The notes under the pieces: model-generated | The model's database searches: none | The model's input: the letters and a program-made list of their open reading frames with translations, nothing else | Told to the model about the DNA's origin: nothing | Translations under genes and position numbers: made by a program | Assembly: GCA_019096065.1 (NCBI GenBank) | Contig: JAGUCH010000001.1 | Location: forward strand, 11,098,001 to 11,162,000 | DNA: 64,000 nt | Direction: 5' to 3' | DNA from: Paracyclopina nana | Taxonomy: Eukaryota > Arthropoda > Copepoda > Cyclopoida > Cyclopettidae | Shown: piece by piece, positions 12,294 to 52,834 of the stretch | Layout of the letters: each line of letters opens with the position of its first letter | Position numbering within the stretch: position 1 is the first letter of the stretch

Positions 12294-14706
12294 TCATGGC
12301 CAGTCACGTTTTCGAGCGAAAAGAGGCAGTTTGCATGCAGCCGAACTGATAATCAATATCATCGTCGTACCTAATATAACATGAACCTTGATGGAAGTTG
12401 GTCTCAGATTGTCAGGCACGCACGAATATTTGCCCGATAATTTCTCGCTCGCTTCCTGCACAGTCAGAATTGAATGGATTGGTTGAAAGTCTTCTTTTCG
12501 GTCATGAACGATCGTGTCCTTGATGGTGACTCCGGGGGTGAAGTCGCTGATTAACCGGTTGTTGTTGTGGTACCAGTTGATGTACGTCGGACGGGTTATG
12601 TAGTTGTACACTGTGCATTTCAGCTCTAGGCTCGAGCCGGATTTCACGTGGAGCTCTTTGTCATCGCTGATCCTCACCGAGGGGACTGAAAACGAGGATT
12701 TTGTTTTCCGTTGCTCATTTCTCAATTGAGAATCACTTGACATTAATGATGCGAGCCAAGACAGCTCAATTCCCTCTGAGAAAATGAGGCAAAGTTCAGC
12801 AGCATCTGCTCATGATATGGGCTCAGTCTCCCAGAAGGAATTGGGCTGTCACGGCTCACATCATTATTGACCATTGATTTCGAGCCGAGGAGAAAGCAAA
12901 CTTTTATGATACGTTGGCAAACTTGGGATTATTTTCGCTGCTCATCCATTACTACGCGCGCGCGCGCTTGGGAATCGAGCCATAACAATTACAGCAAAGC
13001 TCTTATGATAATGAGTGCTACAATGCAGCAATGTTCATAATTTATTTTTTTCCTTCACCGAATTAACGTTCGAAGGGTAGAAACACGTCTTACATGTTAA
13101 GCTAAGCATACCGAGCCGGAAATTGCTCCTTTCCGTGGCACTCTGCTGATATAAGAAAGGGAAAACTGCCTTAGTGCGACTAGGCGCGCAACATTTGTTA
13201 ATATATAACACACAAAGGGAGAGCTGCATTCTTTAGTTTTAGTAGCGGATATATCCTTCAAAAGAAAATACTTACTGACAACCTTCAGCTCGAAAGTTTG
13301 GCTGAGCTTGGGTGAGGTTGAAATTTGGCATTCGTAGCTGCCAGCATCAGCCTCCCGGATGAACCGGAAGCGAATGGACCAGTCTCCATATCCGTTTCCG
13401 GGCAGGAGGTCAAACCGGTCGTCATCCACGAATTTCACATCCCCAATAAATAAGATGTGAGAGTCTCGACTGCGGATCCAAGACACCTGAAAGACCCCGA
13501 AGAAATGACAATCGCAAGCAATATCGTTTCCTCATAACACTTTGCATAGTAACTGTCTCATTATCTATCATAAAAACTACGGCAACTTAAAGCGGCTAGC
13601 TCTCATTGCCATAGCGAGAACTGCAGAAGCAATTGAGAAAATGAGCCAAAGTAAGCGAGGCCACGAGGGATGCCAAAATACGATACATACTTCGTAAATA
13701 ATGCCCTGGGGCTAAATCGGTGATTCCCCTTTTTTCCAAAGCCAAATGGGCTATTTTTGAGCGAATACATTTCCCCCTTTTAATCTTCCGGCCCATTGAT
13801 TTGTGCGCGTGTGTTTTGTGGTCAGCCTCGAAATTAGGCCTTTGAAGTCTACTCACCGTTTGGTTGTACAGGTTTTCCACTTTACAGATGAAGAAAGCAT
13901 GGCCGCCCTCTTGGACCGTCACTACCTTCGCTGCGGGCAAAAAGTAGGGTCGCTTTTCAATTTCATCAGCCCAGATGGCGGCGGCGGCCGAGGAGGAAAT
14001 CGACCTTGCTACTGACCCTTTATTGTTGATGTTGTTGTTGTTCTGACCTAATTCGAGTAATAAAGGAAATTAATAGACCTCTTTCCTCACCTTGGCACGC
14101 CTTCGTGGCTTAACAGCTACTGCTACTACTACAACAGCAGGCATCACATCATGGCTTTGAGGTTATTGTTTAGTCGACAACAAAGAGAATTCTTAGGCAA
14201 TCATCATTGTGCCAGTAGATGTGCTGCATGCAGCGAATTTTGCCAGCTAACGCAGTTGTCACCACCACCACTGAGGTGGCCTTGCAAAACTTTGTGTGTG
14301 TGTGTGTGTGTGGTTAATCCTCTAGAATGTCGATCCATTACTTGAAAGCACTTTCATCAAAGCTTTACAAATGAGGCGACTACAGAGCAGATTTTGCCAC
14401 CACACACTCACACACAAATATTTGTGGTACAGTCTGCCCAGGGAATTCACAAAATGTCAGCAAAAAAGGAATGATCGGTGGTGGCGACCTCCTAAAGATT
14501 GGCAATCTTGTGGCAAAAAAAGTTGCCAACAACCAAAGTTGGGGAAATCAATTTGGCCTCTTTCTCTCTGCGTTGACCTGCTTATGCAATGCTTGTTCTG
14601 TGCTAGCTCAGGCATAATCAGAATAATAGAAAGTCTTCTTACCTGAAGAAACAAAGGTAGAGGTAAAAAATATAAGTAAGGCCACGCTACTGCAGTTAAT
14701 CTTCAT
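12294..14706 (-). CDS. dpr: Dpr-family cell-surface protein with two Ig domains
   Basis: Four exons, 14706-14643, 14047-13857, 13486-13276 and 12685-12294, with phases 1, 0 and 1 at the junctions; 285 residues. Exon 1 encodes a signal peptide (MKINCSSVALLIFF...). The first Ig domain (about residues 60-155) has its first Cys in FFICKV, the family hallmark VSWIRSRDSHIL, and GSYECQISTSPK around the second Cys. The second Ig domain (about 160-260) starts IPSVRI and carries LKCTVYN, INWYHNN and YSCVPDN. Dpr proteins bind DIP partners on neuron surfaces and help specify synaptic partners. The C-terminus is a short hydrophobic stretch (ILGTTMILIISSAACKLPLF) then a basic tail, so either a GPI signal or a membrane anchor is possible. 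A putative 25-bp intron near this end was rejected as too short. One N-glycosylation site (NQT) precedes the WIRSRD motif. Confidence 0.9.
13098..13110. other. Intron sequence between Ig exons
   Basis: Part of the 590-bp intron 12686-13275 of the Dpr-like gene. A (CG)n tract, CGCGCGCGCGC, lies nearby at about 12956-12967. No other structure was seen. Confidence 0.3.
14293..14312. repeat. (TG)n microsatellite
   Basis: A run of ten TG units inside the first intron of the Dpr-like gene (14048-14642). The complementary (CA) stretch at 14402-14414 is shorter and interrupted. Confidence 0.85.
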
Positions 14707-36265: not shown

Positions 36266-36666
36266 GTTACTGGGACATAGAATTGCACACCCGGGCTATT
36301 GGGACCCGAATGAACACGATCAATTTTAAGGCCCTTAGGCCTAGAAATTTCAACTTTTTAAATTTTTTTCATAAAATATAGGCCTTCAGGCCCCTCTGGG
36401 CCAAATTTCATAAAAATCCAAGGCCTTCATTTTTTCCATGTTTTATTGGGACATGAGCATGTGCAAATTGCTATTGGGACATCAATCCACATGCACTGTT
36501 GGGACAAAAATGTACAAATTGCTATTGGGACATATATGAACATGCACTATTGGGACCAAAATGTGCAAATTGCTATTGGGACATCAATCCACATGCACTA
36601 TTGAGACCAACATTATAAAATGCTATTGGGACTGAAATGAACATGCACTATTGTGATATAAATTAA

Positions 36667-36901
36667 CACTTTGGGCCAATACACTTTGGGCCAGTAGACT
36701 TTGGGCCAATAGACTTTGGGCCAGTAGACTTTGGGCCAGTAGACTTTGGGTCAGTAGACTTTGGGCCAGTAGACTTTGGGCCAGTAGACTTTGGGCCAGT
36801 AGACTTTGGGCCAGTAGACTTTGGGCCAGTAGACTTTGGGCCAGTAGACTTTGGGCCAGTAGACTTTGGGCCAGTAGACTTTGGGCCAGTAGACTTTGGG
36901 C
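36667..36901. repeat. 15-bp minisatellite
   Basis: About 15-16 tandem copies of a unit close to AGACTTTGGGCCAGT, with a few single-base variants (CCAAT, GTCAG). The period is a multiple of three, so long frames open on the minus strand; they are simple-repeat artefacts. Confidence 0.95.
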
Positions 36902-36942
36902 AAACAAGCTTAAAGGAGCTGAATATAACTGAACAGTGCATT

Positions 36943-37092
36943 TTTGTCCCAATAGAAAGAGTGCTTTTCTCCCAATAGAAAGAGTGCTTTTGTCCCAATA
37001 AAAAGTGTGCTTTTGTCCCAATAAAAAGTGTGCTTTTGTCCCAATAAAAAGTGTGCTTTTGTCCCAATAAAAAGTGTGCTTTTGTCCCAATA
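36943..37092. repeat. 23-bp minisatellite
   Basis: About six to seven tandem copies of a unit like GTGCTTTTGTCCCAATAAAAA plus two bases. The CCCAATA word links it to the element's termini. Confidence 0.9.
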
Positions 37093-37179
37093 AGAAAAGC
37101 TTTAGAAATTAAGGAGGAGCCATAAATAGCCAATCATTTAATTACCTCAACAAATCCCCACAATATGGGGTAAAACGAT

Positions 37180-37985
37180 TTACTTTGCCTCACACTAGAA
37201 GTCAAGCTGCCTCAAATTAGCAGCCACAACTGACATTTTGACTCAAAATTGACCTTATCAGGGATTTCGCGTTTTCTTAGCAGTACATTAGTAGAATTAC
37301 ACGATGCGCAAGTTTTGGCTCTAGCAAAATCAGAATGTGTCAAAAGTATGACTTTGCCTCACATTTTGGGTCCAATTGCCTCAAATTATCAGCCACTACT
37401 GACATTTTGACTCAAAATTGACCTTATCAGGGATTTCGCGTTTTCGTAGAAGGACATTAGTAGAATTACGCGATTCGCCAGTTTTCGATCTAACAAAATC
37501 AGAATGTGTCAAAAGTATGACTTTGCCTCACATTTTGGGTCCAATTGCCTCAAATTAGCAGCCACTACTGACATTTTGGCTCAAAATTGACCTTATCAGG
37601 GATTTCGCGTTTTCTTAGCAGTACATTAGTAGAATTACTCGATGCGCAAGTTTTTGCTCTTGCAAAATAATAATGTGTCAAAAGTATGACTTTGACTCAC
37701 ATTTTGCGTCCAATTGCCTCAAATTAGCATCCACTACTGACATTTTGACTCAAAATTGACCTTATCAGGGATTTCGCGTTTTCTTAGCAGTACATTAGTA
37801 GAATTACTCGATGCGCAAGTTTTCGCTCTTGCGAACCAATCATGAGTCAAAAGTTTGACTTTGCCTCACATTTTGGGTCCAATTGCCTCAAATTAGCAGC
37901 CACTACTGACATTTTGACTCAAAATTGACCTTATCATGGATTTCGCGTTTTCTTAGCAGTACATTAGTAGAATTACGCGATGACA
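37180..37985. repeat. 169-bp tandem array
   Basis: The word CTCAAAATTGACC recurs with starts spaced exactly 169 bp apart (near 37241, 37410, 37579, 37748, 37917), giving about five copies with high identity. Each unit contains TTGCCTCACATTTTG and GGGATTTCGCGTTTTC. The period is not a multiple of three. Confidence 0.93.
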
Positions 37986-37999
37986 TAATGTTAAAAGAT

Positions 38000-39260
38000 G
38001 GTCACAAATGGTCCCTTACGACATTCCTTCAAAGAGCCTTTTTGCCTCAAGTGGACTTGACATTAAGTTCAAAGATGGTCCAAAATGGTCCCTGAGTCAT
38101 AAAATGAGTCATTGATGGTCAAAGTTTTCAATTTGAGTCATTTAGACAAACTTGACTCATGTACCAGAATCATTTCTGAAGTTTGAGTTGCTAGCTTGGC
38201 CAAGTAGAAAAATGCACACTCTTTGTTGGACCATTCTTTCAAAGAGCCTTTTTGCCTCAAGTAGACTTGACATTATGTTAAAAGATAATTCAAAATGGTC
38301 TCTGAGTCATAAAATGAGTCATTGATGGTCAAAGTTTTCAATTTGAGTCATTTAGACAAACTTGACTCATGTACCAGAATCATTTCTGAAGTTTGAGTTG
38401 CTAGCTTGGCCAAGTAGAAAAATGCACACTCTTTGTTGGGACATTCCTTCAAAGAGCCTTTTTGCCTCAAGTGGACTTGACATTAAGTTCAAAGATGGTC
38501 CAAAATGGTCCCTGAGTCATAAAATGAGTCATTGATGGTCAAAGTTTTCAATTTGAGTCATTTAGACAAACTTGACTCATGTACCAGAATCATTTCTGAA
38601 GTTTGAGTTGCTAGCTTGGCCAAGTAGAAAAATGCACACTCTTTGTTGGGACATTCTTTCAAAGAGCCTTTTTGCCTCAAGTGGACTTAACATAGTGTTA
38701 AAAGATGGCCTAAAATGGTCCCTGAGTCATAAAATGAGTCATAGATGGTCAAAGTCTTCAATTTGAGTCATTTAGACAAACTTGACTCATGTACTAGAAT
38801 CATTTCTGAAGTTTGAGTTGCTAGCTTGGCCAAGTAGAAAAATGCACACTCTTTGTTGGACCATTCTTTCAAAGAGCCTTTTTGCCTCAAGTAGACTTGA
38901 CATTATGTTAAAAGATAATTCAAAATGGTCTCTGAGTCATAAAATGTGTCATAGATGGTCAAAGTTTTCAATTTGAGTCATTTAGACAAACTTGACTCAT
39001 GTACCAGAATCATTTCTGAAGTTTGAGTTGCTAGCTTGGCCAAGTAGAAAAATGCACACTCTTTGTTGGGACATTCTTTCAAAGAGCCTTTTTGCCTCAA
39101 GTAGACTTAACATAATGTTAAAAGATGGTCACAAATGGTCCCTGAGTCAAAAAATAAGTCACAAAAAGTTACTGAGTGTAATCTGTGTCATTTCTGCTAT
39201 GTCAGCTGTATGGCTTGAGTAACTTGTTCAAGGCAAATAATGCACACTCCTTGTTGGGAC
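38000..39260. repeat. 210-bp tandem array
   Basis: The segment GTACCAGAATCATTTCTGAAG (one base variant in copy four) starts at 38161, 38371, 38581, 38791 and 39001, an exact 210-bp period; edge copies make about six units. Each unit carries CATTCTTTCAAAGAGCC and several GAGTCA words. The repeated 64-residue plus-strand frames here arise from the array. Confidence 0.95.
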
Positions 39261-40737: not shown

Positions 40738-41052
40738 AGCCCGGTTCCAACAAGGAAAATCAGCATAGTCAGGAGACGTAGCTGGACTAATTGGCAAAAG
40801 CCCGGTTCCAACACGGGATATCAGCCTAGTATAGTACGGTAAACCAGTTAAGTCAGGTTGAGCTGAGCGCGCGAGCTAGCTGTGACCTGACTATGCTAAA
40901 AAGTCAAGTTACGTCTCCTGACTATGCTGATTTTCCTTGTTGGAACCGGGCTAAAGTCAGGTCAAAGCTGGCTCGCGCGCTCAGCTCAACCTGACTTAAC
41001 TGGTTTACCGTACGTACTATACTATGCTGATATTCCGTGTTGGAACCGGGCT
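40738..41052. mobile_element. Family A MITE nested in a reversed family A MITE (copies 2a/2b)
   Basis: The outer element begins AGCCCGGTTCCAACAAGGAAAATC at 40738 (given here only to its subterminal part) and ends GGAACCGGGCT at 41052. A complete 154-bp copy, 40799-40952, sits inside it. The subterminal words show the inner copy is in the opposite orientation: ACACGGGATATCAG is at the left end of the inner copy, and its complement is at the right end of the outer copy. Confidence 0.85.
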
Positions 41053-41621: not shown

Positions 41622-41775
41622 AGCCCGGTTCCAACACGGGATATCAGCATAGAATGGTGCGGTAAGCCAGTTAAGCCAGGTCGAGCTGAACGCGCGAGCT
41701 AGCTGTGACCTGACTATGCTAATAAATCAAGTTACGTCTACTGACTTAGCTGATTATCATTGTTGGAACCGGGCT
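41622..41775 (+). mobile_element. Family A palindromic MITE, copy 3
   Basis: A complete 154-bp copy: AGCCCGGTTCCAACA at the left end, TGTTGGAACCGGGCT at the right end, and the inner palindrome AGGTCGAGCTGAACGCGCGA followed by CTAGCTGTGACCTGAC. It is close to the inner copy at 40799. Confidence 0.88.
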
Positions 41776-46205: not shown

Positions 46206-47458
46206 ATTTTTTCCCAAAATGCTAACCTTGCAAAAAAGCTATGAGATTGCGAATACCTATATCATCATGAGGTCGAAAATTCTTTTACAGAATTTGATTG
46301 AAAACCTTAAGGCCAAATATGCCCTACTTTGACAACTTTTTCTCTCTTCGTTCAAACTCTCTACCAACTTTTATGATATGGCTATTTCGTTATCTTTTCA
46401 TTCACGATCTGAGAATCCAGCTCCAATTTAAGAGAGTCTGTTTCGAATTTCAATTTAGCGCGTCGAGAACTAACGAAATTCTCTTTTCAATAACAGATAC
46501 AGCTAGCACATTTTTTTACCGATACCAAGCGTACACTTTTACAACATGCCCTTTCCAGTTTACTAATATTACAGAATTGCCAAAAATACATCCCCATAAG
46601 CACAAAAGATTGTTCTATTGATACACTGAAATGTACATAAGTACATGTATGTACTACAACATTAACCACAATCTTCTTGACCTCATAAAGAAAAAGAGTA
46701 GAAAGGAAAGTTCTATTTGTATTTGAGTTGAGTACCACTTGAAGGAAAATGGACAATTTCTGTTCAAATTCACTCAAGTAGCTAAGTCACAGTGTGGAAA
46801 CGAGCAGCATAAAAAATTTGAGCTGCTTTTGCTAGCCCTATTTTCTTTTCGATCGTCGTCAGCTTCTAGCTTTTTAGTACTTTAGCAGTTTGATGGGTAT
46901 ATTCTCCTCAGTGAATTTTCTAGTCTGCGACAACTATGTCCAATTTTTCACGCTGCTACAGTTTTCTTCTCCTTTTTGTAAGCATTTCCTCTCTCTTTGG
47001 ACGTTATTCACTCCTTATAAGTTGAAAAGCTTTTATTAAAGGGACAAATGGAAGGCAATGTTGAGTACTGGATCTTGATTGAAATGTTAGAGTAAGCTAA
47101 CAAGTGGCAATTAGATTTCAGCTTCGATTACTTTTTCAAGCCTACATAGCATGCTGTGTATTTTCACAATACTGCTAATTTCAAATCGTTTTTTTCAAAT
47201 CGTTTTTCCACTGTGGATTTTTAGTGAGCGACAACAAGGCCCAATTTTTCACGCTGCCACAGTTTTCTTCCACTTTTTTGCAGACTTTTTCTTCTCGTGA
47301 ACAGAGGAGAGACGCGGCGTTTCTTGTTCGAAAGTCGAAAGTGTGCCAAGCCACAACAACCAACCAACCTTCTTCACTCCTCTTCCTGAGTACTAATGGA
47401 AATGTGGCCTTCACATCAGATACTTTACCCGTTTTGCTTTTGACCTAAATAAGTCTTT
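46206..47458. other. AT-rich DNA without recognised feature
   Basis: Only short open frames. The words GACAACAAGGCCCAATTTTTCACGC (near 47229) and GACAACTATGTCCAATTTTTCACGC (near 46928; both cited for position only) mark a diverged direct repeat of roughly 60 bp that includes the following CTGC-ACAGTTTTCTTC. Otherwise nothing seen. Confidence 0.35.
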
Positions 47459-47494
47459 GCCCGATTCCAGCAAGGGATATATAATCATACTACT
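47459..47494 (+). mobile_element. Family A MITE, left-end fragment
   Basis: The left end of a family A element (GCCCGATTCCAGCAAGGGATAT) directly precedes the composite copy at 47495; the remainder is lost. Confidence 0.55.
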
Positions 47495-47547
47495 AGCCCG
47501 GTTCCAACACGGGATATCAGCATAGTGTAGTACGGTAAACCAGTTAA

Positions 47548-48510
47548 GGCCTGGATCAGCTGGTTAATTCACCGCAATTTTGAGCTCCGTAATTGCGGTG
47601 CAATTGTCAACGTAACAGCGATCAGCTGGTAATTGTAATCCAATTTTTGCTATGTGCAAAAATTACTTCTTTAGCGGGTTTATAGTAAAACTTTAAGACC
47701 AAAATTCAAAAATGGGATCATTAGAGCTGAAACTATCAAAACCAGCTTCTGTTATGAGAAATAAGGCCAACAATTAGGCCAACTTAAATTGCAAAGGTTT
47801 GTTAGACTTTACTCTTAAAGTTCCGCCGCTGCTTTGCTCGCCGAAATTGCACTGCAATTATCTGTGGAAGCTGATCCACTTAAATTGGGCTTTGCTCACG
47901 GAGGCTCTGGTAGTAATGATTTTTGCCGCCAGGAGGAGCTAATGATACCCCAGCTAATAGCAGCGTAAGCTAAGCGGGCAGAAAATTGAATTTCGATCTG
48001 TTTCTGTTTCCACCCGCCCCGCTACTAGCCCCGATCTAAAACTATTGAACCTCCGATCAATTTTAAAAGCATCCAGATTTGATATATTTCAACTACTTCA
48101 CTAATATTTCAGTCTTCTAATTTTTGAAAAGCAAGTTTTAATCTTGTTTTGTAGTCATTTTAAGGGCAAATTCAGTTATAATTGCATGCTTTGTAGGACA
48201 ATTTGCCCAAGAAAATCAGCTTGATACACGGTGGAGCTTTCTTGAAAAGGCAGAAAATCTCTACTTTCTTGACAAAAACGCCAAATATTTCATTTTTTAA
48301 AGTCAAAAAGCCAAATGATAACGATTATGCGACGAACTAGTTTAAGCGACTTTGAAAAAGAATCGGAGGTTACTTCTAATGCCATCTTTTTTACATTATT
48401 CGGAAAAATGTAACTACACCGTGAGCAAAGCCCAATTGTAGCCCAATTACAAACTGCAGCTGAAATTATAAACGAAATTGCGCTGCAATCAGGACCAGCT
48501 GATCCAGGCC
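47548..48510 (+). mobile_element. Family B MITE copy 1, itself interrupted
   Basis: 963 bp with 17-bp terminal inverted repeats GGCCTGGATCAGCTGGT. It is inserted in family A with flanks TAA and CAA, a possible 3-bp duplication. GGCC ends and 3-bp duplications recall PIF/Harbinger elements. A related 412-bp copy is at 52423. Its extra length is due to the family D insertion. Confidence 0.82.
47887..48433 (+). mobile_element. Family D inverted-repeat element inside family B
   Basis: 547 bp bounded by GGGCTTTGCTCACGG and its exact complement CCGTGAGCAAAGCCC. The uninterrupted family B copy at 52423 continues across this point, which shows D arrived after B. The flanking AATTG on both sides may be part of the ends or a target duplication. 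No coding capacity seen. Confidence 0.78.
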
Positions 48511-48563
48511 CAAGTCAGGTCGAGCTGAGCGCACGAGCTAGCTGTGACCTGACTGTGCTAAAA

Positions 48564-48772
48564 GGCCGTTCTCATATTGCCGGAAAAAGCTAAGCTAAGG
48601 TGAAAATAGCTAAGCTAAGGTAAAAATAGCTAAGCAAACGCTCAACATTTCAAGCAAAGTAGCTGCTTTTTGTGAATGTTGAGCGAAATAACCGGTTTTC
48701 GTTGCATAATTTTTACCTTAGCTTAGCTAATTTTACCTTAGCTTAGCTTTTTCCGGCAATATGAGAACGGCC
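48564..48772 (+). mobile_element. Family C fold-back element inside family A
   Basis: 209 bp with long (about 70 bp) inverted arms beginning GGCCGTTCTCATATTGCCGG, followed by repeated AGCTAAGCTAAGGT words. The host element shows the direct repeat TAAAA on both sides, a likely 5-bp target duplication. Confidence 0.88.
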
Positions 48773-48830
48773 TAAAATGTCTTAAGTTACGTCTCTAGAC
48801 TATGCTGATTTTCCTTGTTGGAACCGGGCT

Positions 48831-49264
48831 GATGTGTAGTAAAGTAAACAAATTAATGTCCTGTTCATGTACGCCCCAAACTCCTTAGGCAAATGCACGA
48901 AAAACACCTCAAGGAAAGGAGAAAAATTGTCTTATGACAAGCGCCAGCTAATACTAAAAAAATCAGATCGACTTTAAGCCACCTTGAAAGTAAACAAATC
49001 TAAAATTGGCTATTAAGTGCTCCACATTTTAGACCTTTTGAGCAAATCAATAGTCAAATTCCATCTGTTATCAAAGAAACGTGATGAAAGATAGTTTGTT
49101 TTCAAATATGCTGAAAACTATGAGACAAAATTGCAAAAATTGCCATTAAAAATTCTGCTCGGCCCCAAGCTGAACTCGTAGAGTGGCAGTCAGCAACAGA
49201 TTCACTTTTCCTTAGGAAAATTTTTTCCTTACCTTAAGGTATTCTTAATACACGAACAAGGCAT
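48831..49264. other. Unannotated spacer
   Basis: AT-rich sequence between two family A remnants; nothing recognised. Confidence 0.35.
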
Positions 49265-49367
49265 AAGTCAGGTCGAGCTGAGAGCGCGAGCTTGCTGCGA
49301 CCTGACAATCCTAAAAAGTCAAGTGACGTCTCCTAACTCTGCTGATTTACCTAGTTGGAACCGGGCT
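49265..49367 (+). mobile_element. Family A MITE, right-half fragment
   Basis: Begins at the inner AAGTCAGGTCGAGCTGAGAG and runs to the right end GGAACCGGGCT; the left third is missing. Confidence 0.75.
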
Positions 49368-52422: not shown

Positions 52423-52834
52423 GGCCTGGATCAGCTGGTCCTGATTGCAGCGCAATTTCGGTCATAATTTCAGCTGCTGTTTGTAATTGCGCTGCAATTT
52501 AAGTGGATCAGCTACTACAGATAATTGCAGCGCAATTTCGGCGAGCAAAGCAGCGGCGGAACTTTAACAGTAAAGTCAACCAAACCTTTGCAATTTAAGT
52601 TGGCCTAACTTTTGGCCTTATTTGCCATAACAGAGGCTGTTTTTGATAGTTTAAGCTCTAATGATCCCATTTTTGAATTTTGGTCTTAAAGTTTGAATAT
52701 AAACCCAATATAGAAGTAATTTTTGAGCATGGCAAAAATTGGATTACAATTACCAGCTGATCGCTGTTATGTTGACAATTGCATCGCAATTACGGCGCTC
52801 AAAATTGCGGTGAAATAACCAGCTGATCCAGGCC
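52423..52834 (+). mobile_element. Family B MITE, copy 2
   Basis: A 412-bp copy with ends GGCCTGGATCAGCTGGT and its complement ACCAGCTGATCCAGGCC, flanked on both sides by TAT (3-bp target duplication). Several inner GATCAGCT and TGCAGCGCAATT words repeat in both orientations. Its uninterrupted interior shows where family D inserted in copy 1. Confidence 0.88.

Follow-up and report, generated by a model that had tools for sequence, protein, structure and literature searches.

Nested MITEs and the closest described systems

The nesting of non-autonomous cut-and-paste DNA transposons (MITEs) in clusters is already a well-known behaviour, and Jiang and Wessler reportedly described nested and clustered MITEs in maize and rice in 2001. 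Among the carrot DcSto elements, MITEs lie inside MITEs of their own and of other families, with repeated insertions near one place, according to excerpts of the report on them (PMC3695323). The Tourist-like MITEs of PIF/Harbinger, which belong with the PHIS elements, are short, non-coding elements with inverted ends; the excerpted text of one survey gives PIF/Harbinger a TWA duplication and ends that usually, but not always, start with A or G (PMC4482050). The same excerpts list TWA, AT, AAATTT, ANT, CWG and C-TNA-G as PHIS target types, and give Pangu, a PIF/Harbinger relative, ends that start with AG or GG and an ANT duplication (PMC4482050). Spy inserts in AAATTT without duplication, as the available portions of two sources describe it (PMC4482050, PMC11304231), and Zator, with its ISAzo13-like transposase, duplicates 3 bp according to part of a third (PMC10045372).

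The locus described here lies in a window of 64,000 nucleotides from the copepod Paracyclopina nana, the whole stretch that was analysed, and coordinates are those of the window unless a locus is named. Six insertions of five families (A0, A1, B, C, D and E, the first two being copies of family A) are stacked at 47458-49367, about 1.9 kb. The locus resembles the nested plant clusters of carrot DcSto in its nesting, but the host and the families are others and the insertions number six. We read the stack as successive MITE insertions of the five families, a reading that we put at roughly 88% probability. The boundaries, the empty sites, the target duplications (except that of A1 in A0), the recurrence of every family and the nesting order can all be observed directly. 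The original prediction had placed four families in 1.4 kb with A outermost; the four families stand, while the depth was underestimated, an older A copy (A0) and the fifth family (E) having been missed.

Structure of the stack

The younger outer element, A1, lies on the plus strand in three pieces. Its first piece (47495-47547; A positions 1-54, 93% identical to the A consensus) ends in the TAA duplicated by B, its middle piece (48511-48562; positions 52-101, 94%) runs from the B duplication to the AAA duplicated by C, and its last piece (48774-48830; positions 98-154, 88%) completes the element. B is inserted in A1 at TTAA on the minus strand and is itself split, into a first piece at 47548-47886 (96% to B consensus positions 73-412) and a second at 48434-48510 (positions 1-77, 95%). 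Between these lies a complete D of 547 bp (47887-48433, minus strand, 96% to the D consensus), in B at AATT. C is complete at 211 bp (48563-48773, AGGCC...GGCCT), sits in A1 at AAA, and matches at every base the consensus built from eight copies of 211 bp; its long inverted repeats are built of 20-bp units. D has AATT and C has AAA on both sides, and B is flanked by TAA on its left and by CAA on its right, one duplicate having changed.

Three intact copies in the same window serve as references. The A copy at 41622-41775 (plus strand) is uninterrupted and supplies the empty site for A, and the B copy at 52423-52834 (plus strand, TAT on both sides, 97% to the B consensus) has the D site uninterrupted; both do the service expected of them when they were put forward as proof of the boundaries. 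A further intact A at 40799-40952 (plus strand, 95% to the A consensus) lies, with an AAA duplication, inside another A (40738-41052), a second A-in-A nest in which the two copies have opposite orientations. The end pairs predicted for A (47495-47509 and 48816-48830), B (47548-47564 and 48494-48510), C (48564-48583 and 48753-48772) and D (47887-47901 and 48419-48433) were found at exactly those positions, and the intact copies together with the target duplications prove the predicted nesting of D in B in A, with C also in A.

Around A1 lies the older copy, A0, also on the plus strand, which two insertions interrupt: A1 with all that it contains, and E. Its 5' piece (47458-47494) forms the start of the oldest A copy, as seen in the alignment of the joined A0 pieces to an intact A; its middle piece (48831-48856, 18 of 23 bases matching A up to TTAA) ends in the TAA duplicated by E; and its 3' piece (49264-49367; A positions 52-154) is 87% identical to the A consensus. 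Joined as 47457-47494, 48831-48856 and 49267-49367, the three pieces cover an intact A from end to end; of 154 aligned bases 22 are mismatched (14.3%), and three gaps account for 11 extra bases. On its own the 5' piece reaches a score of 29; 2000 block shuffles never exceeded 24, and 3055 other places in the window never exceeded 23. E is complete at 407 bp (48857-49263), in A0 at TTAA, with inverted ends TGYCYTGTTCRTGTA and TAA on both sides. No duplication can be recognised where A1 entered A0, the flanks reading ACT and GAT.

Genome-wide recurrence and target duplications

The end patterns of each family were searched in the whole genome (92 Mb, 10 contigs), with the reversed patterns as controls. 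Exact ends numbered 357 + 363 = 720 for A, 79 + 76 = 155 for B, 86 + 93 = 179 for C and 73 + 69 = 142 for D, with no control match for any of these, while the E ends gave 321 + 306 = 627 against 2 + 1 = 3 in the control. In shuffled windows, A-D end matches averaged 0.01-0.14. Loci were cut out around the first ends listed for each family, namely 8 of the 720 A ends, 30 of the 155 B ends, 30 of the 179 C ends and 30 of the 142 D ends, together with two longer B copies. Statements about duplications rest on these loci and the window, whereas counts of the bases that precede ends cover the whole genome. As had been predicted, the ends of all four families A-D recur across the genome as independent insertions.

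Among copies with both ends, A has a 3-bp duplication of no fixed sequence in nine of 14 (the other five lack a clean one), and B has one in 16 of 18 (TAA or TTA in 14 of them), the other two copies being unclean. E, with both ends present in the window and in loci L001, L051 and L078, has a TWA duplication in four of four. For D, AATT stands on both sides in 17 of 20 copies, with three unclean. C had been predicted to duplicate TAAAA, which fits only five of 18 copies; with ends taken as AGGCC...GGCCT, a 3-bp duplication is found in 15 of 18 (three unclean), and we reject the 5-bp version as a chance extension of the 3-bp duplication. Genome-wide, TWA precedes 116 of 155 B ends, A precedes 173 of 179 C ends, and AATT precedes 131 of 142 D ends. 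C copies come in lengths about 20 bp apart, which matches the tandem unit in their inverted arms: among 34 copies paired by hand, 20 measure 211 bp, four 191, three 231, one 171 and two 170, the remaining four being 206, 226, 314 and 605 bp.

Coding content and likely source of the enzymes

No reading frame in the window copies is longer than 52 amino acids, so the elements look non-coding, and in length (154-548 bp), inverted ends, copy number (142-720 exact ends) and target duplications they have the features of MITEs. Neither a frame through D nor one near an A copy matched a Pfam family. Rfam gave no match in the window, and ARAGORN reported no gene in the window or in loci L083, L099 and L100; two stretches of the insert in the B copy of L100 (L100:480-700) look tRNA-like by eye, and ARAGORN found no gene there either. 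DNA folding over most of two A copies gave z scores of -1.64 and -1.43, which are not notable. Elsewhere in the window, a minus-strand frame at 12294-12809 carries an immunoglobulin domain (PF13927), and immunoglobulin, P450 and tyrosine-phosphatase domains, which suggest animal DNA, were found in frames of the window and the cut-out loci. Adjoining tandem-repeat arrays with periods of 15, 23, 25, 51, 169 and 210 bp occupy 36459-39161.

Each copy would owe its movement to a DDE transposase from a different element. Since both B and E duplicate TWA (14 of 18 B copies and four of four E copies), an enzyme of PIF/Harbinger type seems most likely for these two. The two families share with Tourist-like PIF/Harbinger MITEs their short, non-coding form and inverted ends, but differ in that no partner transposase was found, and E differs further in that its ends start with T. 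The Harbinger-type transposase domain PF13359 had 25 matches genome-wide, several of which are paired pieces of a single place; none was tied to the ends of the stack families, and none of the 23 in the range listed lay within 100 kb of exact B ends among the matches listed. The two longest B copies cut out (L099 and L100), read for transposase remnants, proved to be B copies that other elements had interrupted.

A and C may have been moved by a related enzyme duplicating 3 bp. Among exact duplications, TAA or TTA accounts for only one of nine in A and none of 15 in C, which places neither family with PIF/Harbinger by its TWA target. All the same, the duplication is preceded by a pyrimidine and followed by a purine in A (15 of 18 flanks, both sides counted), B (30 of 32), C (28 of 30) and E (six of six), and this, with the 3-bp duplication that the four families have in common, suggests, though it does not prove, related enzymes. 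That A, B, C and E were all moved by PHIS-type enzymes (PIF/Harbinger and relatives such as Pangu), and not B and E alone, accordingly has a chance that we would place just short of even. In its favour, beyond the shared duplication and flanks, is the resemblance of C to Pangu, as far as the excerpted survey describes it (PMC4482050), in ends that start with AG, in the 3-bp duplication and in being AT-rich. Weighing on the other side, ANT is found in only seven of 15 exact C duplications and two of nine in A, the A sites are few, and a 3-bp duplication, as seen in A, is also given for Zator in the part of the source available (PMC10045372). The Zator domain PF07592 had no match in the genome, and the same search was silent in the control genomes too.

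Like Spy, D has a strict palindromic target made of A and T only, but at 17 sites AATT alone is constant and the outer bases are mixed, so that the AAATTT of Spy was not found. Insertion between AA and TT without duplication is possible; it is not separable from a duplication because AATT is its own complement. The AATT rule is absent from the PHIS target types in the excerpts of one survey (PMC4482050), and AATT combined with target-site terms had no match in the open-licence papers searched. It is conceivable, though rather unlikely, that D belongs to a group of transposons with an enzyme specific for precisely AATT, acting either by duplication or by a cut between AA and TT. When the end sequences were searched in these papers, seven papers matched; the six listed all contain the D 15-mer, and none of them concerns transposons by title; the families may already be described, since repeat databases and most subscription journals lie outside that search.

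Order of insertion and divergence

Since an element that interrupts another must be the younger, A1 and E arrived after A0, B and C after A1, and D after B. The stack would thus have begun with the arrival of A0. E would have entered a TTAA of A0, and A1 would have entered A0 about 30-36 bases from its start. After A1, B would have inserted into A1 at the TTAA position equivalent to that of E in A0, C into an AAA of A1, and D into an AATT of B. The nesting leaves the relative order of E and A1, and of B and C, undecided. The interruptions bear out the order given in the original prediction (A, then B and C, with D after B), and the divergences do not contradict it.

A0 is 14.3% diverged from the intact A copy at 40799, and A1 5.2% from the same copy and 7.8% from the consensus, while the other stack copies differ from their consensus sequences by 4.4% in B (18 of 412), 3.8% in D (21 of 547) and 0% in C (0 of 211). 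Divergence agrees with the nesting, but A1, B and D differ little and the families may run on different clocks, which leaves only the extremes, an old A0 and a young C, as informative. Within families, divergence among selected uninterrupted copies was 4.5-19.0% for 10 copies of A, reflecting more than one subfamily, 1.2-5.1% for 13 of B, 0-1.4% for eight of C in the 211-bp form and 3.8-8.8% for 14 of D; the selection omits 5 of 15 end pairs for A, 3 of 16 for B, 10 of 18 for C and 6 of 20 for D. By a naive family clock the D family looks older than B, yet this copy of D sits in B, so that D must have remained active after this B arrived.

Reused sites and other nests

B in A1 and E in A0 occupy the same TTAA of A (positions 51-54), and A positions 94-101 received both C (in A1) and the A copy at 40799 (in the A copy at 40738-41052). 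Two internal sites of A, the TTAA and the A-run near positions 94-101, have thus each been struck twice independently.

Nesting is frequent among the copies examined. Among the B matches listed, 82 of 100 ends paired into 41 copies, of which 34 measure 411-413 bp and seven are longer. One of the longer copies (C3:9978836-9979461, 626 bp) contains a C end pair and exceeds 412 bp by exactly 214, as predicted for a C of 211 bp with its 3-bp duplication. Several other nests were seen in the cut-out loci. B is nested with C in L023, and in L022 (1585-2296) B holds an insert with ends CCCAACCAG...CTGGTTGGG and an apparent TA duplication. In L099 (105-1540) an element whose inverted arms are 94 bases long and whose ends are GAGTCTATGCAGG lies in B with TTAA on both sides, and in L100 B is interrupted by a complex insert. 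L083 (988-2386) is a three-level stack, in which A contains an element whose long inverted ends are full of TCCG repeats and which in turn holds D at AATT.

Copies of A, B, C and E are dense in this region and A0 and A1 belong to one family, as might be expected if the stack arose by local duplication, rearrangement or an assembly error rather than by independent insertion. We consider such an origin highly improbable: every inner element ends exactly as its family does and, A1 aside, is flanked by a target duplication, and the interrupted copies become continuous once the inserts are removed. A single composite element moving as a unit between the outer A ends is more improbable still, for although A ends can still be made out at either side of A0 and A1, the copies of all five families cut out elsewhere have separate flanks and duplications of their own, divergence spans 14.3% (A0) to 0% (C), and no second example of the whole arrangement was seen among the cut-out loci, a small part of all copies.

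Implications

Read as successive insertions, these are ordinary, well-preserved nested MITEs. Their least ordinary part is the strict AATT target of D, a rule worth tying to an enzyme. The stack fixes the relative order in which several MITE families arrived in one genome, and it yields clean boundaries and target rules for five families that are of use in annotating the genome of Paracyclopina nana.
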